Shown piece by piece: positions 1 through 25,560 of a stretch of 62,093 bases of DNA (positions are counted from its first letter, which is position 1; every line of letters begins with the position of its first letter). The translations under genes were made by a program, and so were the position numbers. Below the pieces are notes generated by a model. It saw only the letters and a list, made by a program, of their open reading frames with translations. It made no database searches and was not told where the DNA came from. Origin of the DNA: Thoreauomyces humboldtii (taxonomy: Eukaryota > Chytridiomycota > Chytridiomycetes > Spizellomycetales > Powellomycetaceae); contig JADGJA010000040.1 in NCBI GenBank assembly GCA_027596035.1, positions 1-62,093 of the forward strand. The letters are read 5' to 3'.

Positions 1-3000
1 ACGATCCTCAATTCCTGACCGCACATGCCAGCAACAACCTGGCATACTGTCGTCTTGCCGGCACCAGTGTCTCCAACAAGCAGGACGGGCTCATTGTGGG
101 ATACGCACTTCCAGACGAGGGTGAACAGTCGTTTGGTGGTAGGAGTCCAGACGAGCTGATCGATGAGTCCCCCAACCAGGGTGGAAGCTGCGGCGAGGAC
201 GGTTTCGAAACCCTTCTCGTACATGCCTTCCACATCCACCTTGACCTTCATCTCCTTCTCGATGACATCTCTCACGATGGCGCGATCCTCGTCTGTTCGC
301 ATGCGTTCCCCGAGGAGACACCAACCTTCCTCCGCGAGCTCCTCGTAGCCTACGCAACCGCGACCGGCCCAGCGGAAGAGGTCGCGAAGGGTGACGAAAC
401 CGTGCTTGCCTTCGAAGACGCGACCGCGTCCTCGGGTTGACTGAAGGGACTTGTACACCGAAACGATCTTCTTCGCGTACGACGGTGCGATTTGGCATCG
501 ACGTTCCAGAATTACGTGCAGCTCCGGGGTAGGGATATCCCCAAAGTGGATCTCGAGGAATCGGTTACGGAATGCTCGGGAAAGCTGTTTTCGCCCGCCG
601 TAGGTCGTCCCTGCAGGGTTTTGTGTAGCAAAGAGCATGAAGGACGGGTGAGGACGGATGGTGGTCTGCGTTTCTGGAATAAATAGCTCGCGGTTATCAT
701 CGAGTAGACGGTTGAGAGACTCAAGAACGTCCGAGGGTGCAAGGTTGAGCTCGTCCAGGATCAGCCAATGTCCTTTTCGAAGGGCTGTAACCAAGATTCC
801 CTGGGAACAAAAATCCACCGAATTCGATTAGAAACCTTACAAGCAAATGGCCCTTCTTATGCATTATCCCCTTACCTCTTGCCAGACCAGTCGTCCGCGA
901 TCTCCACCCTCCTCGGCCTCGCCCCAGCCACCGACGTACTCGGCAACATCCGTGCCCTCGTGGTTGTTGACTCGCACGCACGTATGGCCGGTCAGCTTTG
1001 CCAGATACTCAACCATGCTAGTCTTTCCCGCACTGGTTGGACCCTGAATCAGCACGGGGTACTTTCCAGACATGACGGCACGGGCAAGGTACGCAAGGTT
1101 CTGGTTGACGGTCGGAGTGAGGATGTAGCTTTCATCAGCGGTGTCCATCCTGGCGAGAGGACCAACGGGGAGGTAGTAACCTCCAACACCGACGTGACGT
1201 TGCTCCTCGCCTTGGTCCGGGTTCTTCACATTGCGGTTCCGGTGCACGTCGACCTTCTTGCCGACGGTCGACTTGAGTTCGAATTCCATCTTTTCCCGAC
1301 TCTTGTCGCCGAGTCCGGTGCCGAAGGTCATGCAGCAGCCTTCCCATACTCCTCTTCGGAGGATCCATGTGCCTTTGATGGTGGTACCGACGGCGAATGT
1401 TAAGGCCCGAGCAAGAGTTCGCATGCTGAAGTGGACGCGATGGTCGGCGCCGTCGTACATGAGACCTTGAGCTGCATATCCGCGAACCGTGGTATAGAAG
1501 GTAGCGATATCATTACACAAATCTTCCCCCGCAGCGGAGGGAGGAAGGACCGCGGCAAGGTACTGCTTGATGATGGCAACCAAATCGGCGAACGTGGCGT
1601 CCGGAGCGTCGACCCAGAACTCGGTGAATCGACCACGGAGTCCCCCTGATAGTTCCTTTTTTCCTGCATCGTTTGCCGGGTTCATGCACCCGAACAGACG
1701 GAACCCGGGGTGCCTCACGACGGGCTCGGTGTCTCCACGCTCCAGCAGGACAAGACTCGACGTCGCTGAGGCCAGCAGACCAGTGAGACAGTCTAGAGTC
1801 TCGGGTGTGGCGAGGTTAATCTCATCGAGCAGAACCCACTGTCCTTCTCGAATTGCTTTGACGAGTGCGCCCTCAATGAATGAGAACAGGAGCGCAGAAG
1901 AGACTTTCTGATATGTTGTATCGAACGTCGTTAAGGTCTTGGCAAACTTTTGCCACTGACCTTCGAGATGGGCGTCGTAGGCTCGCTTCGTCTTCTTCTT
2001 CTTTGCTACAGGTTCGTCCGACACGAGCTCTCCCTTCAACTTGGCGAAAACGCCTTGAGCCATTTTGACTCCCATTCGGCATCCCTTGACGAAGACTGGC
2101 CACCTTCCGCCCTTGAAACCCTTTCGCACACCTTCAAGGAACGCAATGTTGGCCTTCACAGAGAAGGTCTGTGCAAACAGCGCCTCGAACTCGTTCAGAA
2201 CCGAGACGGCCAGAACCCGAACATCGACAGGTTTGAACCCTCCCAGAAGGTCGCTCGAGTCGGATTGCTGGGACATGTTGATGACCACGAGGGGAGTGTT
2301 GGTGAGATGAGCGAGGTACTGAACGACCGTGGTCTTTCCTGTTCCAGTCTCTCCGACGAGCAAGATGGGCTCGTTCTGACTGATTCCGACGGAAATACTT
2401 TCCAAGAGTCTCAGCGAAGACGGCGTTGGGGCGTAAGGACGCTGAGCAGTGACCTGCAGCGCATCGCGAGATCGCTTGGACAGACTGACGCGACCGACTG
2501 TGACCGCACTGGGGCTGGCTTGAAGGTTGGGGACATGAACATTGCAGTAGAACTGTACGCGGTGGGCAGCCACGCCGAGTTGCGCGCCAATCTTTTCGAC
2601 GATTGCATCACGCGAGGCTTTCGTGGGCATGCTCTCCGTGAAGCAATCGGCAGCTTCGCGAAGCAAATCCTCTCGCACTGACAAGGGCAGATCAACCTCT
2701 CCGTCGACGTCCATTTGGTCACCGGATTGATCCGATCGGTCCTTGACGCGAGGTTCGACGCGGTCACACCACTTGATGAGATCGCGCAGGGATGCTGTAC
2801 GACCGCCGCTGATAGTCTTATCCTTGTAAAGTCCCTCGATCAAGGTAAATGCGGCTAGAATTTGGGATTGTACACCACACTCTTTCAAACGAGGATAAAG
2901 GTGGTCGATCACTTCCACCACTTCGCCTTCGTCCAGTGCTTTGACGGGGATTTTGTGCCAAAGACCATCGCCGGCAGCCTGACCTTGTACCGACCGGTTC

Positions 3001-4632
3001 GTGCCCACGGATCGGGTGCCGAAGACTCGGAACCCTTCCTTTGCGCGAACCTTTTCTCCACGGCTGGCAACAAAAAGCCATCCCGTCTCAAGAAGAGGAA
3101 TCAGAACGCTGACCACCTCGAGTGGGGCCAGGTCGAAGTCCTCAAAGAGGATCCAGCGTCCCTCCATGACCGCAGTCGTCAGGACTCCAGGTTGCCATCG
3201 GAAGGAGCCGGGCGTCGAGGTGCAGATGTAAGTGCCCAGGAGGACCTTGGCGTCGGTCTGATCTCCTAGGTGGATCTTTAGCAGCGTTCCGTCCTTTCCA
3301 AGGGACTGGGCCGCTTGCTCCACTAACGCGGTTTTTCCTACGCCAGGGGCTCCTTCGAGCAGAATGGGCACGTCGAGCGAGAGTGCAAGCGCAATGCTGT
3401 GGAGGTTGCGGCGTGTGGTAAGCGTAGGGACCAAGTTGTCCTGCTGTATTCCGATTGATACTCCAGTGGCTGGAAGAAGCACGCCGGCGAGGTCCACTGC
3501 GAATGCGCAAAGATGGGCCGATGTGATCAGCACCAGGTTGGTGGACGTCAAAACCTCGCTAGCTGATATGAAGAGCTCAGCTTCTTGTTCGGCATCAGTC
3601 TCATCCTCGAGCAAACGCAAGACGGAAAGATGACCCTCCACCGAAGCTTCTCCAAGGTGTGTCCGAAGGAATATACTTCGCTCGCCATCCGACATGCCCA
3701 AGACAATGGAGAGTATCGAAGCGGTATACATGCGGATGCTTTGGTCTGTGTGTGTGAGGATTGTGTAAAGGGGAGTCCACGACAAGAGCGGCGTGACGGT
3801 CGAAGGATCCAGTCTGATAAAGCGATAAAGGCTGCGAACCATGGATGTGGTGCGCGCGATGGAGGTTGATGCTGTTGCGATATGCTACGGTATGGAGAGC
3901 GCACGTTCAGAAATCAAGAAAGTGTTGGTGTTGAGCTACAACAAAGCCCCGTACCAGTAAAAGGGAAGCGTCCTCAGCCATTGTCAACGCTCTGGTGGCG
4001 AATGAGCTGAGTTGTGGAGCCGATGGAAGAATCAAGGAGAATGCCAGCAGCATCTGCTCCAGCCGTCTTGACGCAGTGTCCACGTCCGTTTTCGCCATGG
4101 CGCGACCGTCAAGGTCATGCTTCGGACTGGCGGTGGCCGAGCTCGCCACCTCAGAGACAGCGTCGCCCGAGCACGTGCAAGCCCGGGAGAAGATCCGTTC
4201 GGCTCGATCCACGTCAGTAAGGGCCAGCAGCCACCGACCAGTCAAATCGATCAGAAGGGGCCTGCATAGTCGCGCAACGCAGAGGGTTAGGCATGGTCGT
4301 AAGAGGAGGGATGCAAGCAGGTCAAGCAGGTGCTGGCTGGTATGGTCGGCTACTGCTGAAGGAATGGTAGAGATAGACTGTAGGAGGGCCCGTTCGCGGC
4401 GTGTGATGCAGTGATGCGCTGTGGTTGAAAGGTCTGATGTCTCCGTCGGTGAAGAGGTGAGGTGAGCCAGGTGCGCAAGAGCGTTTCCGATGTCGGTCTC
4501 AAAGGTCAGACGATGATCGATGACGCCGGATGATGGGGTTGGGAAAGAGTCTGCTAGTTCTGAGAGCTCCGATGCTATCGGTTGACCCTGGTGAAGAGGG
4601 CCCCCTGTAGAGACGACTCCGTACTCTGCCAT
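1..4632 (-). CDS. MDN1: Midasin (dynein-like AAA ATPase of 60S ribosome biogenesis), 5' part only
   Basis: Midasin (yeast Rea1/Mdn1) is the giant AAA+ motor that strips assembly factors from pre-60S particles in nucleolus and nucleoplasm. Three exons are seen: 4632-3955, 3884-876 and 800-1 (open at the window edge), with phase-0 introns of 70 and 75 nt. They encode about 1,495 residues: the N-terminal domain and AAA1 to AAA4. Four Walker A motifs are visible in order: EGAPGVGKT, VGETGTGKT, QGPTSAGKT and VGDTGAGKT. Walker B-like stretches include LLDEINLA and ILDELNLA. The later AAA modules, the linker and the MIDAS domain lie outside the window. The start (MAEYG) is chosen at the first Met of the family-like region; the frame stays open upstream to about 4893 but reads like 5'UTR. 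Family identity is secure; the exact start is less so. Confidence 0.95.
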
Positions 4633-10919: not shown

Positions 10920-12351
10920 TCAGGTAAAAAAGCCTTCGACGGCAAGGAGCTCCCCTGCCAGCTCTTCCGCGGAGGCACCGGTCTTCGAGAGACCGAAGTC
11001 AATGACCCGCACGCTGTTGGATGCGGGGTCGTACAGGAAGTTCTCGACGCGGACGTCGCCGTGGAGAACGCCTAGCGCATGGACCTTGGCCAGCGCAGCC
11101 AGGGCCAGGGAAATGATGGTTCCGCGGTCTCCTACCGAGTCACACACGTTCTTGAGCGGCTCCCCGGCGTGATCCATGCGAAGAACGTGGAGCATGTTCC
11201 ACACGCAGCAGCAACCGTGGAAAGTGGGGACTGCGGACCCATGCAGAGGCTCCAGAGTCCTGTAAATGGAGACTTCGTTCTTCATTTGCGAGGCCAGGTC
11301 GTGATGCTGGCTGGCATCCACGCATTTGAACAGACTCGGAGGACCGCCGCGGAAGGAGCCGCGAGCAATGATTGCATTGCTCCGATCAATCGTCTTTTCG
11401 AACTGGATATCGTTCGGGCCGATATCTTCCATCTCGTACCTGTTGAATGACTGTTAGCAGTTGTGGTAGAAGAGGAGAATGCAGCAATTGAACTTGCCGA
11501 CTGTCTGCACTGACTGTCGAGCTGCGAGGTGCTTGGGACCGGCGTTGCAATGCTGGTGATGTCCCGGCCGAGGAGCCTTTGCTGGCAGGCCTGGGCGAGG
11601 CCGTCGGTGACGCGTAAAACCAGCGCTCGTCTACCAACCGTAGCAGGGTAAGATAACCGACCAATAGCTTGGAGTCGTCGTTGAACGCAAACGGTCCGGC
11701 CACGCGCAATCGCCCAGAACGTTCTCCAGCCCGTTCAAAAAACCATGTTCTGTCGAAAGTGGTGAGGACACCATAACGGTGATCGTTGAACGTCATGTAT
11801 CCATAAAGTTGCGAGAGAGCCTTCGCCACCCGCTTTGGTGGTTTCCCCACTGGTGTTTCTTTCACTTCGGCCGTGTAAGCGGCGATAATGTCAGTCACGT
11901 CAAAGGCCCATGGTGTCTTGAACTCAACGCATAACCTGGGTTTCAGCGAGTTGGGCGAACGCCAAACTCGGTCGGGGTCGCCGACGAGGTCAAGCGCCCC
12001 AGCAGGGGCATACATCTCACCCGTCTTTACCTGCGCATACGATGCGAGCTCGGACAAGTGTCCGAAAAGCATCGAGTCAGCATGGCTTTGCACGGTCATC
12101 TCGTTCGAGGTCGGAGGAACCGTGCGAGGAGGGTTCGGCGGTCGGAAGTTGCCACATTCCACGGCGTCAAAGTCAATGGTGCGAAGTCGCATCAGGTCGG
12201 CAAACGACGTCCAGGGAAGAAGCTCATTCAGGTCCGTGCGCGGCCAGGCAGGATTTGTAGTGGTCGTGCCTGAGAGAGCATCGTGGACGATTCTGAGCGC
12301 GGGCAGCGTGAGGTCGTTGAGGTACTGTGACAAAGAGTATCGCGGGGGCAT
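10920..12351 (-). CDS. PD-(D/E)XK nuclease-like plus protein-kinase-like protein (Crinkler-effector type)
   Basis: The first part (12351 to about 11490) carries a restriction-endonuclease-fold signature: an Asp-containing LDLVGDPD strand, then LCVEFKTPW (the E-x-K pair), then SQLYGYM resembling the QxxxY motif. The second part (about 11450-10920) is a compact kinase-like domain with an invariant-Lys candidate LFKCVD, LHGDVRVENFL (catalytic loop) and VIDFG (DFG). It ends soon after DFG, so the C-lobe is very short. Fungal and oomycete Crinkler-type proteins are known to pair such nuclease and kinase domains; that is the basis for the call. The join is unsettled: a 43-nt intron with donor GTTCAA near 11506 keeps frame, but other joins exist. 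The frame is open upstream to 12984, so the start MPPRYS is a choice. Function in this organism is unknown. Confidence 0.65.
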
Positions 12352-13296
12352 GGCTGGGAGAAACGATTGGAGAGACCGAGAGGAGACGGGAGGAGCCGAG
12401 AGGATAGAGCCGAGAGGATGACGGAGAGAGAGCCGACGAGAGAGGGTTCGGCGTCCGTCTGCGGTTCTTCTGTGTTGGGGAGCGCTGGGGGAGTGGCGAA
12501 AAAGGAAAGGGAGAGACGGCGAGCGCTGCGTACCGGGTAGCGGGTAATACAAGACAGCAGCAAAGAATACTGTCGATCTGGTCACGTGGGGAGCCGCGAG
12601 ACTGTAAGGAGAAGTTACAGTGTGCCTCTTCCGTGGAAGAGGAAAGAGGGTTACATAGGGTAGGGTTCGATGGGAGCCTGCTCTCGTGCCAGGCCTGCTT
12701 TCCAACACGCCTCCCCACTCTTCTCTCGACCACACACACTCTTCTCTGAAGCATACTCCTAATTGATGACACACTGTGCGAGGGCGGTTGCAGTGATAGC
12801 GACGACTGCTGGTGTCCCGTTGATTCCGACTCAGACCAGTCGCATTGGCCTTGGCCGTTGATGATTCGCTGGAGGCACCCGAGGTGGACTTTCCCTTGAG
12901 AAAGCGAGAGTCCACCTTAGTAAGCTTGACCCAGCCATTTTTGATGCTTCCCACGATGAGTTCCGAGCTAAAGGAGGGCTGCATGTCTCGGTCGGCCGCG
13001 AGCGCGCCTGCCTCGTCGCCTCGCTCACGCCTAGCCGTTCAAGTCAGACGATCATACCACTCTAAGTCGTTGTGACATCTTGTTCGCTCCGTCTCTCCCG
13101 CATCACATTCCCTCTGTACGCCATAAGTTTGAACACGATCGGAAGAAGATAAATGATAACGGTTTTGACCTCTGGATGTCCTCTGGTGGTTAATTCGGCA
13201 GATTCTCGCTGCGATGGAAAGTTTTCCGATGACGCTTCGAAGCTAGGATAAATAGTAGATGCTCCCGGCTTTTACATTCCGCACTTGTATTCCAGC
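12352..13296. other. Intergenic, pyrimidine-skewed upstream region of the nuclease-kinase gene
   Basis: Two minus-strand frames stay open for about 180-210 codons here (to 12772 and 12984). The minus strand is C/T-rich, which makes stop codons rare in several frames at once, so I read it as promoter/5'UTR. A coding N-terminal extension beginning MQPSFSSELIVG at 12984 is not excluded. A TATA-like gataaatag lies near 13247. Confidence 0.4.
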
Positions 13297-20116: not shown

Positions 20117-22253
20117 CTAGATACGTTCCAGCTCAAACGTCTTTTCGTAAACTGGCGTATCTTGGAAGTCGTTAACAAACAGAGCGTATGTGGCGGTGGG
20201 AATAGGCCTCTGCGTATCAATTGTAAACATTCCCCACTACATCGAGCGGGAATCAGTAAGCGTCCGATCAACCGAGTTCCACCCCCTTCCAACCAACCTT
20301 GATGTTCCCAGGACGCCAAGAGAAAATGACCTGGTCTTCCGCGGTCTCAACATAGGTATCGATTGGACTATAAAAGGCTTGAAGTGGACTGGTGCTGAAC
20401 TCGATGACATTGCCGGGCAACCGAGTGATTGCTACTTCATGTCGATCTCCGCTAATCGCTAAAACGTTCCGAATGTCGTTGGTAGATATGAAGTCTAGAA
20501 TTTCTTGCCGTTCCTTCAGGTAACCCGCCCATGTGTCCCGTTGTTGCCATTGCCCTGTAATCCGAGAAATCTTTGAGCCCACCATCTGAAGGCCGAAACA
20601 AACAATGAATCTTACAGTTTTGAGTGAACGGAACAGAGGTTACGAGGAACTTGACGGTGTGCGAGGATTTAACTGAATGGATCGTTTACCGTAAACCAAG
20701 GTGCTTCCAAACACCAATTAAATGCGGCTCTTACCTTCTAACAACCACTTCTTCAATCTCGCTTTCTGTGTAGCACCTAGCATCGTTCGCTCTTTCCAAT
20801 TCCTGTCGACACGGGTGTCCATCACAAAAAAGGCGGTATCGCCGAACTCGTACTCGAAGACTGCGCTCGAATTGGTATCGATGTGGGGATTTGTGCCGCC
20901 AGCGTACTCGTTGAATGCCTTGAAAGCGGCCGGATACGGAGCTTCGTGACTTGACTCCCAGTCATTGCTCTGCGGCATTTGACTTCGTCAGTGCTGACTT
21001 CCAGTATGGGAAAGTGCAGTACGACCATACTCACGATTTCGTGATCATCGTAGATAGTGAGGAAAGGTAACCTGCGGAAGGTGTGTCGAAAGTCTTCATG
21101 GGAGTACAGGTATCTGTAGTGCCATCGGTATGTGCTGACATCTGAGCCGTACATCCACGGAGCGTCTACGAAAGGCGATTTACGTTAGTTCGGAGAAGAT
21201 CCCGACCCGCTTCGTATGCCTACCTGCATAGATCAGGTCACCAAGGAACATGACAAATGACAGATCCTGCTTGCCCATCTCGCGGAAACCTCTGACACCT
21301 TTCGTGCCATAAGGAAAGCCAGGCTTCACGCATGACGTGAACGCAAACGAGTATTTCGAAGGTGTAAGCGACGGTGGTGCAGTGGTAAAGCGGAGATAAT
21401 CCCACTCTGACGAGTCCAAGAGTGTGTTCCCAGTCTCGTCAGTCCAGCGATATGCATAGGTCGTGCCGTCACGCAACCCCGAACAGGTACCGACAGCCGT
21501 GAAATCATGGGCTTCGCGAACTTCGATCGGACCCTCGCAAATCGTCCATTTGGCGACCCCTTTCTTGGCTGGACGTTGCTCAAGCCGGACGTTGATGTCG
21601 CGGGGAATGCGGACGAAGATCTTTGCATAGTCCGGGCCTATACCACCCACTCGCGTCATTTCCAGGTCATGATGTTTAGCAAACAGGAAGGGCCGAAAGA
21701 CAAAGTCCAAACAAAGGCCAAAGAGGACCGTGTTGGCCAGAATTGTCATCAGAAGAGCGACCGCCCGTAGCTTCCGTTGCGCGAGGAACTGCCAGAAAGT
21801 GGGCTCATCCTGAGGAACCAGCGGGAAAGAAGCGGTGACTGGGGTTCGATCAGAGTTCCGTCGATTGCGCAAGGAGGACCCCGCATCTCGTGGCGAAGAT
21901 GACTCTGTCAGAAGAGCCGTCGTCTCCTCTTCCGAGGGAGGTGCATTGACCAACGAGGAGCGCCTTTTTGCTCGAGCCTTGGCGTCCTTGGTATTCGAGT
22001 ACCAGATCCACACAAGGGCAGGAAGTATAACTACTTGAAAGAGATAGGTAAGGAACAGAAGCCTCAGGATCTGTGGTGAGGGAATCCTGGACGGAAGGGA
22101 GGATACGTACAAGTTTAGCAGACAGGCGTGGGTTCACCGACCAGTCAGTCCCCTGGACACTCACACTTTTAGCATTATTGGAGCCAGGAAAGCGCCGAGG
22201 ACAGCAAAGATGGAGAAGAGCCATGACAGCGTTGTAAGCAGAACGACCGCCAT
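20117..22253 (-). CDS. Membrane-anchored PhoD-like phosphatase
   Basis: Seven exons (22253-22167, 22070-21224, 21165-21035, 20969-20735, 20672-20616, 20554-20283, 20236-20117) give about 582 residues. The N-terminus has hydrophobic segments (MAVVLLTTLSWLFSIFAVLG; LRLLFLTYLFQVVILPALVW; later LLMTILANTVLFGLCLDFVF), so it is membrane-bound. The catalytic metallo-esterase part shows FTSCVKPG, MFLGDLIYADAPW, TIYDDHEI, FVMDTRVDRNW, VKFLVTSVPFTQNW, WAGYLKERQEIL and AISGDRHEVA. These are typical of fungal PhoD/alkaline phosphatase D proteins, acting on phosphodiesters or phosphate esters outside the cytosol. The last intron uses a weak donor (GTGGAA) and is least sure. Divergent from the FHA-aprataxin gene. 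Confidence 0.9.
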
Positions 22254-22469: not shown

Positions 22470-25400
22470 ATGCAAAGAGTAACGCTGGTCGACGAATCCA
22501 AAAACAGGCATACACTTGATACAAAGCATGGAACGTTTGTACTCGGCCGAAAAGTTTGGGGTATCACCGAAAAGCGAGTGAGCAGGTCGCAAGGTAGGCC
22601 ACTTCACAATCACAATCGACCGCAAACCAACATCTAACCCAAGTCCTCGCAAGTTCAGATTTCTGTAGACAATGGATCGGCAAGCATCAAAGTAGAGCAG
22701 ACTGGACCAAACGACTCTTGCGTGCGGGTGAATGGGACCGTGCGAGCGTTGAGCGTGGGAAAATCGGCAACGCTGCACAACGGTGACGCACTCTTCCTAC
22801 TGGAGGGATTGCTCTGCTTTGAGGTCGAGATCAGCAACGGTGCTTCAGCCAGCGGTGCCAGTACTCCATACAAGCGTAGTTCAGGCCCCAGTCAGTTGCC
22901 CGCTGCGAAAAAATCTCGCACGTCCGCACAGAAATCGAAGAGACCGGACCTCAAACGAGGACGCAGCTCTGGAGACGACGATGACGAATACGAATCGGAC
23001 TTCGTAGTCTCAGATGATCACGATTCAGGAGAGGACGATGACGACATCGACGATGATGCGGACAGTGGAAGTGATGCGGCCCCAGCCAAACTCCCACAGT
23101 GCCGCTACGGGCCGAGCTGCTATAGAAAGAACCCTAATCATTTCAAGCAGTTTTCCCACCCTTGGCTAAACAAAGCGAGCAGTATTACGGGCAGTAGCAG
23201 AACATCAGGCAATGGAGCGAATACCCCTGCCGCTACCCCGAGGCAGCGCCCACCAAATACACAACCCATATCTCGCAATGTTCCTGATACCCGTAACCCC
23301 CCATCAACTTCATCCTCTCATGTTTCCAAACGTCCCGCTGTCATCGCGAGCCAAAACCATGGCAGCGAAACAGAGTCACCGCCTCCTTCACCTGTTGCAG
23401 TATTGAGCCAGCGCGCTCGCCATCCGGATGATAGCCCTCAATCGCCTGCCTCGGTATCGGCTACGGGACGCAAGCCGCAAAGTGTGGTCGAATCGCCTCT
23501 CATATCGGGCGGAGGGAGCGAGACGGATTCGCCTCCGGGATCTCCAATGGCGAAAGCCACCTCGCCAGGGAGGAGCGCTGCTTCTGAAATAACAAGAAAC
23601 GCATCATTTCCCGCCTTAAACTCCCTAGCTTCAACGTCGGACAGCTTTGCATTACCGCGCAGTCCTGTTCCAGTACGGGAGGAAGGACAGAGCAAGGAAC
23701 TGACATCTGTACATTCAAAGACGACGCAACACAAACCGCAACCGAGTGTAGCCTCGATTTTTGGAGCCAGTACAGCCGCTAAAAAATCTGTTCCGGTGCG
23801 ACCAGAGTCATCACTTTCCCCTATCCGCCCGTCTGCTTCTTTTGTGCTGGTCTTTCCGTCACTAGGCACAGCTGAAGGTCAGATTGAGGTCACAGCAGCT
23901 GCGGCAAGTTTAGGCAAGGTAAGGTTCAAAGAAAGGGTCGTACCGAAGCTCGCACGGCTTACTAAATACCTTTGTAGGCTGTTCGTGACTTTTGCTCGAC
24001 GGCCCAAAACGGAGTGTTTGAGCTCATTTGCGTTGACCAAAGTACCATGATGCTGGAAGCATGCCAGAAGGTGCGTCACTTCAGCGATCGAAGTCGCAAG
24101 AGCCTGCCTCTAAAGTCGCTGTTCAGGTGCTTTGCGATGAGCCTCGCTTCAAAACGAGAATCGGGGATCTCGCCAATCTAGAGCTTCTCAAGGAGCTTGC
24201 AGCAACCCATGTCGTCGTAGAGACATCCTGGAGGTGGAAAACTTGTAGGTGACACTGTACGTGCAACTAATTTTTAGTGGCTCTTCTCAACTCTGGATTG
24301 TTTTTAGCCGCGACTGCTGTTTGTGATAGGTTTCACTCACGCATTGGCAACTCTCTCCTGAATCAAGTCCGCGATTCGCAGCCAGCTCCCGGTCAGGTTG
24401 GCCATGTCTACCCTATCGACGTACCCCTCGATTCGGTCCTCGCCGAAGAAGCAGTCAAGAAGGTGCGAGCAGCTTGGTCGTATCGTCCTGGCGTATAGCA
24501 CGTCTGAAGGTCTTTCTTCATAAACCTAAGGTCTTGTACGTTGTGGCACCTAATTGCAATGTTGCGAGGGCTCGTCCTATATCCCAACCGGAGGCTGCAG
24601 AATCGCTGACCTTGCTTTATGGCAAAGTTATGGCCATGGCTGCCGAAACAGGTACGTAAGCTATGCCATCGGGTTCTGGCGCCATGCTATTTTACTCGGC
24701 GTGCCAGCACAAAGCTTCGGACTGATGATTAAGCGGGGGTTTTCCAAAGCAGCTACCACCCCTGCGAACAAACGCCATAGCCTCCCGTCAGGCAACCATG
24801 CAAATGCTAGCCCCGGTGGCGGTAGAGGCGGGCCTTGGTCAGACGCTCTCAAGCAATATTGTCGGAATCCCGATGCGTACCCGCAGGACGTAGTCTACCA
24901 AGATGGCGGGACCGTAGCGATCAGAGACAAGTTTCCAAAGGTAACGAGACCTGATGCCCGGCATTCTTTACCGGCGCTCATGCATTAAGTCAGGCCAAAC
25001 GCCATTTTCTGGTCATGCCTCGCCTAAGCCATGAACTTCGTGATCTTAAACCGGTCGATGTGGCGGTCCTAGAAAACTTGAGGAAGGTGGCCGGCGATTT
25101 GATCTCCCGAGCCCAACGGGAAGATGCCGCGTTGACCTTTCGAACTGGTTTTCACGCCGTCCCCAGCATGACGTACGCCTGGTCGCTGGAAGCTGATTTC
25201 GGGCTCTCTCGACTAACTGGCCTCTTTTCCGCAGGCAACTTCACATGCATGTAATTTCCCAGGACTTCGACTCGTCAGCTCTTAAAAACAAGAAACACTG
25301 GAACTCTTTCAACACAACATTCTTCAAGGATTACGAAGAGATCGTTGATCTGTTACGCCGTACTGGGGAAGTGAAGGTATGGCGTCCAAAAGTCTTTCCT

Positions 25401-25560
25401 TGGTTAAACTTGAAAACCGACCTTACCGCATCGATGTGCGCAGTTTGACGTAAAGGCTGAGGAAGAGAAGCTAAAGGGTCCATTGGTTTGCCACCGATGC
25501 GGAGAGGAGCAGCGAAACATACCGTCCCTCAAACAACATATCAAGGATTGTAGCAGCTGA
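22470..25560 (+). CDS. FHA-PBZ-macro-like-aprataxin (HIT, zinc finger) fusion: DNA-break repair protein
   Basis: Ten exons join in phase: 22470-22593, 22654-23918, 23978-24070, 24127-24244, 24308-24462, 24531-24651, 24708-24940, 24994-25172, 25235-25376 and 25444-25560 (848 residues). FHA, about residues 1-100: LGRKVWGITEKRVSRSQVQI and VRVNG, the APTX/PNKP/APLF type with SRxQ. A linker with acidic runs leads to a PBZ finger (188-211), CRYGPSCYRKNPNHF then FSHP, which binds poly(ADP-ribose). A long Ser/Pro-rich linker follows. Residues about 465-625 look like a degenerate macro domain (FKTRIGDLANL, THVVVETSW, QVGHVYPIDVP, VLYVVAPN). The HIT domain (about 665-805) has HFLVMPR, GFHAVPSM, QLHMHVISQDFDS and NKKHWNSFNT. 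The C2HC finger is CHRCG...HIKDC. Aprataxin removes 5'-AMP from abortive ligation ends. HIT, FHA and PBZ are secure; macro is probable. Confidence 0.9.

Follow-up and report, generated by a model that had tools for sequence, protein, structure and literature searches.

In a 62,093-nucleotide stretch of the chytrid fungus Thoreauomyces humboldtii (contig JADGJA010000040.1, positions 1 to 62,093; hereafter the window), a ten-exon gene of the APL/aprataxin type lies at positions 22470 to 25560 of the plus strand. Its exons and the features of its product of 848 amino acids (aa) are as follows.

22470..25560, plus strand: chytrid APL/aprataxin gene, ten exons, 848 aa (splice model, introns, aligned relatives)
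22470-22593, plus strand: exon 1
22654-23918, plus strand: exon 2
23978-24070, plus strand: exon 3
24127-24244, plus strand: exon 4
24308-24462, plus strand: exon 5
24531-24651, plus strand: exon 6
24708-24940, plus strand: exon 7
24994-25172, plus strand: exon 8
25235-25376, plus strand: exon 9
25444-25560, plus strand: exon 10
22470..22832, plus strand: FHA domain, aa 1-101, in exon 1 and the start of exon 2, with the intron 22594-22653 inside it (Pfam FHA_2)
23088..23168, plus strand: PBZ zinc finger, aa 187-213, ligands Cys191, Cys197, His204 and His210 (Pfam zf-CCHH)
23169..23840, plus strand: low-complexity linker, aa 214-437
23841..24635, plus strand: circularly permuted macrodomain, aa 438-620, exons 2-6
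24211..24324, plus strand: altered catalytic/distal-ribose loop VVVETSWRWKTSATAVC, aa 523-539, spanning the intron 24245-24307 (alignments)
24821..25310, plus strand: aprataxin HIT domain, aa 664-788 (Pfam DcpS_C, human APTX 6cvs)
25311..25551, plus strand: aprataxin C2HE-type zinc finger, aa 789-846 (Pfam zf-C2HE)

The joined exons form a single frame, as a sequence-only reading of this DNA had proposed, of 849 codons including the stop. All nine introns are of the GT-AG type and 53-68 nucleotides (nt) long; the lengths of seven are not multiples of three, and the other two, introns 1 and 4, would bring in an in-frame stop if retained. Exon 2 (1265 nt), open throughout, carries the latter half of the FHA domain and continues through PBZ finger and linker into the macrodomain, as far as aa 463; FHA half, PBZ and macrodomain start are thereby joined with no splice assumption needed. 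Its stop-to-stop frame spans 470 codons, against at most 281 in any of 300 dinucleotide-shuffled versions of the region. Judged by its open frames and introns, the stretch is built like a real gene.

The FHA, PBZ, HIT and zinc finger assignments of the sequence-only reading are each backed by a Pfam match. At the C-terminus, Pfam DcpS_C/HIT matches aa 681-784 (E-value 3.1e-24), aa 664-844 align with human APTX (6cvs, 3e-37), and the catalytic motif TQLHMHVISQDF occupies aa 763-774. The catalytic histidines His766 and His768 are present in 158 of 161 aligned rows, the remaining three being gapped; the first triad position is Gln in the window protein and in 150 of the 161 rows, and His in the human chain. 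The zinc finger takes the C2HC form (Cys826, Cys829, His842, Cys846; zf-C2HE, 1.9e-14). Both marks of an aprataxin, a HIT domain with its catalytic histidines and a C2HE/C2HC finger behind it, are present. At the N-terminus, FHA_2 matches aa 16-65 just above its threshold (2.7e-5; 24.5 bits, cut-off 23.1), and among solved structures the domain matches the FHA domains of PNKP (1ujx/1yjm, 2.5e-6; PNKP at 9.1e-6 in another search) and aprataxin (3kt9, 0.004). Arg27, Ser38 and Arg39 are invariant in the ungapped chytrid rows (10, 11 and 12 of 14, respectively). In the genome of T. humboldtii, the FHA_2 profile gave no match and its controls were silent too; that the window gene went unmatched may be due to the intron splitting its FHA domain. 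The PBZ finger is clear (zf-CCHH at aa 189-212, 2.1e-12; APLF PBZ 2kuo, 3.7e-12) and was found independently in the genome search; its ligands are kept in 13 of 14 rows, with one row gapped. Pfam recognizes one such finger in the protein, not the two that are expected of an APLF.

The middle region, which the sequence-only reading had called macro-like at aa 465-625, is indeed a macrodomain, placed by us at about aa 438-620. As the Pfam Macro profile has no match in the window protein, the case is built on the rice APL structure 5LW0, on relatives and on the predicted structure of one of them. In a search of solved structures, aa 421-599 matched the macrodomain of 5LW0 with an E-value of 2.1e-7; the macro region alone matched it at 3.9e-7, with three other matches at 0.25. 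When the Macro profile was applied to five chytrid relatives, Rhizophlyctis P0045 passed the cut-off (4.9e-7), P0047 (0.0025), P0009 (0.048) and P0001 (0.17) stayed below it, and P0008 had no match. The first piece of the P0001 domain aligns weakly to the last 27 profile positions; since the start of the domain thus fits the end of the profile, the order of pieces agrees with a circular permutation, and permuted order is seen in both P0001 (weakly) and P0045. The macro fold is predicted to be intact in P0001, a model of this close relative and not of the window protein itself. In the genome, the Macro profile matched two other genes and not the window gene. Identity between the window protein and 13 relatives is 28-47% in the macrodomain, against 11-19% in the preceding linker (for the 10 of 13 with enough letters there), and the part of P0001 matching the linker has a predicted local distance difference test score mostly below 50. 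Because the domain is better conserved than the linker and its altered loop is conserved as well, it does not look to be decaying.

The pocket of this domain was compared with D175 and F113, the residues of rice APL named for ADP-ribose by Gunn et al. (2016; PMC5087659), in an alignment that includes plant relatives and leaves out the rice chain itself; a single offset of 65 from the chain index puts both residues on clear columns. The alignment holds 14 chytrid rows and 140 others (147 before the removal of 7 gapped ones), and these sets are not independent, as the 140 are mostly land plants and the 14 represent eight named genera plus the window. The D175 column, the adenine acid, is Asp in the window protein and Asp in 8, Glu in 2, Asn in 2 and Ser in 2 of the chytrid rows. 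At F113, the window protein has Gly, as have 13 of the 14 chytrids (Cys in the other), compared with Phe in 130 of the 140 other rows, the remaining ten being gapped (4) or having Gly (4), Tyr (1) or Asp (1). The Phe of FPS, considered as a retained pocket Phe, is ruled out by the 5lw0 numbering, which places F113 at the T-x-E-G Gly. The NAAN motif is gone in all 14 chytrid rows, reading VETS in the window protein with the Glu present in all 14; its second Asn has become Ser in 11 rows and Ile in one. The loop VVVETSWRWKTSATAVC takes the place of the plant (I)ANAANWRLKPGGGGVN: the GGGG run reads SATA in the window protein, and no chytrid row has Gly at any of its positions. The loop's Trp, Arg and Lys, invariant in chytrids, are shared with plants and prevail elsewhere (125, 128 and 118 of the 140 other rows).

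In a crystal structure of a SARS-CoV-2 macrodomain, described in PMC7729036, three elements act on the distal ribose: the second NAAN Asn, which holds its 2'' and 3'' hydroxyls; the triple Gly, in contact with its 1'' and 2'' hydroxyls; and a Phe that constrains it. Adenine is bound there by an Asp. Mapped onto the changed columns, these contacts point to a chytrid domain altered at the distal-ribose end, with the adenine acid mostly kept. MacroD-type ADP-ribosylhydrolases share the macrodomain fold, but they are unpermuted and carry NAAN and a triple-Gly catalytic loop (PMC7729036), both absent from the window protein. The binding or hydrolysis of ADP-ribose that the sequence-only reading had held possible is accordingly weakened, as NAAN, the Gly run and the pocket Phe are missing in 14 of 14 chytrids. 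Most likely, the permuted macrodomain does not act as a hydrolase and does not read ADP-ribose in the canonical way. It is probably not an enzyme, also in view of Dictyostelium APL, for which Gunn et al. (PMC5087659) report no hydrolase activity as data not shown. On account of its permuted fold and layout, we read it as a pocket variant inside the APL family; it would fall outside if F113 were taken as defining.

The ten best matches to aa 430-848 come from Powellomyces, Spizellomyces, Geranomyces, Gaertneriomyces, Rhizophlyctis, Phlyctochytrium and Zopfochytrium, all of which we take to be chytrid genera. At most 8000 candidates were scored in the homolog searches and one result covers the best 120 of 321 matches, so that the distribution among eukaryotes is at least as wide as given here. 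FHA_2, PBZ, HIT and zf-C2HE are jointly pre-annotated in 7 of 44 matches (P0001, P0003, P0004, P0007-P0010); zf-C2HE is absent from the annotation of P0006 and P0028, and HIT from that of Borealophlyctis P0047, which lies on a 7.3-kb contig. Database annotation already shows these four domains in a single protein; it mostly lacks the macrodomain, because Pfam misses it. Among the matches listed, land plants have a kinase-macro-HIT-zinc finger order, Balamuthia P0058 has macro-HIT-zinc finger and the environmental P0017 PBZ-macro-HIT-zinc finger. This spread over chytrids, plants, Balamuthia and P0017 suggests that the architecture is old and that losses followed.

The architecture is that of the APL family. 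Dictyostelium APL (DDB_G0293866, PDB 5LW6) has an N-terminal FHA domain, a central PBZ and a permuted macrodomain in the same order, but there the macrodomain is C-terminal and the account in PMC5087659 describes no aprataxin HIT/zinc finger after it. Plant APL, or "bHLH140" (rice Q10MW4, PDB 5LW0), shares the permuted macrodomain followed by the aprataxin HIT domain and C2HE finger; in most plant rows listed, however, an AAA_33 P-loop kinase replaces FHA-PBZ at the N-terminus, Selaginella P0056 being unlike them in having a PBZ in addition to the kinase. The plant rows shown also keep NAAN and GGGG, and the rice crystal has ADP-ribose bound. Animal aprataxin (APTX; PDB 6CVS, 4NDF) resembles the window protein in its N-terminal FHA domain and its C-terminal HIT domain and zinc finger, but PBZ and macrodomain are absent from the precomputed Pfam matches of P0048-P0050, and human aprataxin is not known to have either. 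Vertebrate APLF likewise starts with FHA and then PBZ; it has two PBZ fingers, a histone-chaperone tail and no known HIT domain, whereas the window protein continues from a single PBZ to macro and HIT. The functions divided between human aprataxin and APLF thus stand on one chain here, much like a union of the Dictyostelium and plant APL proteins.

The likeliest role for such a protein is that of a single-chain, poly(ADP-ribose) (PAR)-guided break-repair factor. PARP would form PAR at a break, and the PBZ finger would bind it and bring the protein there; the FHA domain would dock onto an XRCC1/XRCC4-type ligase scaffold phosphorylated by CK2; HIT domain and zinc finger would free the products of abortive ligation from their 5'-AMP and so allow another attempt at ligation. 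The macrodomain would keep its fold with the distal-ribose half of the pocket lost, as a structural or repurposed module beside HIT. This combination of PBZ recruitment, FHA docking, HIT de-adenylation and a retained macro fold without its distal-ribose pocket we regard as probable. We infer all activities and partners of the window protein; recruitment to PAR by PBZ, docking to phosphorylated scaffolds by FHA and de-adenylation by HIT/zinc finger are established functions of these families. The genome holds matches to PARP, PARG and PNK3P (PNKP-type) profiles. XRCC1_N and XRCC4 profiles found no match in it, but their controls were silent too, and this is not evidence of absence. Contig C617 carries both PARG and PARP matches, with about 10 kb between them (12039-12917 and 23199-23750).

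Several points weigh against this reading. Exon boundaries and protein are known from sequence alone, the splice sites having been chosen by reading it. The zf-C2HE profile has its sole match in the genome in the window gene (20.67 Mb, six-frame search), but such a search reads frames without introns, and a second aprataxin with a split finger could escape it. Only one of the five chytrid rows tested passed the Pfam Macro cut-off, and the second Asn of NAAN is retained in 2 of 14. The gene models P0002 and P0005 are without FHA_2, and Fimicolochytrium P0046 (345 aa) is annotated with HIT and zinc finger alone; these exceptions may be truncated models or real variants. In a HIT tree of 47 of 58 rows (10 removed by hand, namely seven plant rows, P0043, P0044 and P0047, and one by length; group labels partly guessed, e.g., "amoeb" for P0059), the chytrids do not form one clade (two changes; one change in 19% of bootstrap trees), and the tree of HIT and zinc finger is too poorly resolved to place the window protein or to prove an old architecture. 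Finally, loss of ADP-ribose binding is a prediction from residues alone, and the macrodomain of Dictyostelium APL, with Glu439 as its adenine acid, binds PAR in vitro (PMC5087659).

It is unlikely that the chytrid macrodomain has kept its binding of ADP-ribose or PAR by means of an altered pocket, as in Dictyostelium APL, and works in tandem with PBZ, with PBZ on the interior of the chain and macro on its terminal unit. Ten of 14 chytrid rows, the window protein among them, have Asp or Glu as the adenine acid, the fold is predicted intact in P0001, and both macro and PBZ of Dictyostelium APL bind PAR (PMC5087659); however, Phe, NAAN and Gly run are all lost, and in a SARS-CoV-2 macrodomain their counterparts touch the distal ribose or press on it (PMC7729036).

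We give little credence to the idea that the domain was retuned from an ADP-ribose reader to a sensor of adenosine-pyrophosphate ends, above all 5'-adenylated DNA, and equally little to its passing this adenosine-pyrophosphate-deoxyribose-DNA to the adjoining HIT domain. 5'-adenylated DNA resembles ADP-ribose with a substituted distal sugar, which would suit changes on the distal-ribose side with the adenine acid kept in 10 of 14 rows, a loop Glu in all 14 and a position directly before HIT. On the other hand, the idea draws on residue pattern and position; human aprataxin de-adenylates without any known macrodomain; and since the loop Trp, Arg and Lys are common elsewhere, what is special comes down to the Glu and the lost Gly run. 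Were it true, the macrodomain would read a DNA lesion instead of a protein mark and share a chain with a PAR-reading PBZ.

That the splice model fused two transcripts or genes, one FHA-PBZ (APLF-like) and one macro-HIT-zinc finger (aprataxin), is highly improbable despite a separate FHA-PBZ paralog with a different C-terminus on C661 and the HIT-zinc finger annotation of P0046, given one stop-free 1265-nt exon holding the second FHA half, PBZ and macro start, and 7 of 44 matches annotated as single proteins with FHA_2, PBZ, HIT and zf-C2HE.

The domain combination, flagged as possibly novel in the sequence-only reading, loses that standing with these pre-annotated matches and with related layouts described in 2016, FHA-PBZ-permuted macro in Dictyostelium APL and kinase-permuted macro-aprataxin in plants (PMC5087659). 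In open-licence PubMed Central literature, we found no paper on the architecture in chytrids (among the matches listed), no description of the chytrid-wide pocket change, and nothing joining macrodomain, adenylated DNA and aprataxin; the one match on aprataxin in chytrids concerns DNA-PK, and PMC5725667 has no bearing on APL. The chytrid set is a natural experiment, in which the same permuted macrodomain has its distal-ribose residues swapped for another conserved loop; it bears on two questions, if an APL macrodomain can function when it does not bind ADP-ribose canonically, and if it aids the aprataxin reaction.

PBZ was not found in Fungi in a 2014 survey (PMC4245714). As PBZ proteins of Eurotiomycetes were reported in 2025 (PMC12543289), a fungal PBZ is not new; the window protein adds chytrids to this record. 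Against the 2014 survey, the T. humboldtii genome shows four PBZ matches, on C661, C335, C151 and C106. The one on C661 (L001, 810-3072) belongs to a second FHA-PBZ gene, in which the frame beginning with the Met at 810 resembles the FHA start of the window protein. The next frame, at 961-3072, is 37% identical to the window protein over 195 columns (FHA end, acidic linker, PBZ) and stays open to the end of the locus, its C-terminus having no Pfam match. The gene looks like an APLF-like paralog with its FHA intron at about the same place. On C151 (13774-15260; L022, and L003 1375-2622), a PBZ finger precedes a DNA ligase catalytic match by about 1.1 kb, both in the same orientation, and the two possibly form a PAR-binding DNA ligase. 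On C106 (13633-14841, minus strand; L004/L005/L008), a PARP catalytic match is closely followed downstream by a PBZ match in the same orientation, possibly a PARP with a C-terminal PBZ. Next to the APL gene in the window, a neighboring open frame at 21180-22133 on the minus strand shows a weak PhoD phosphatase match below cut-off (7.5e-4).
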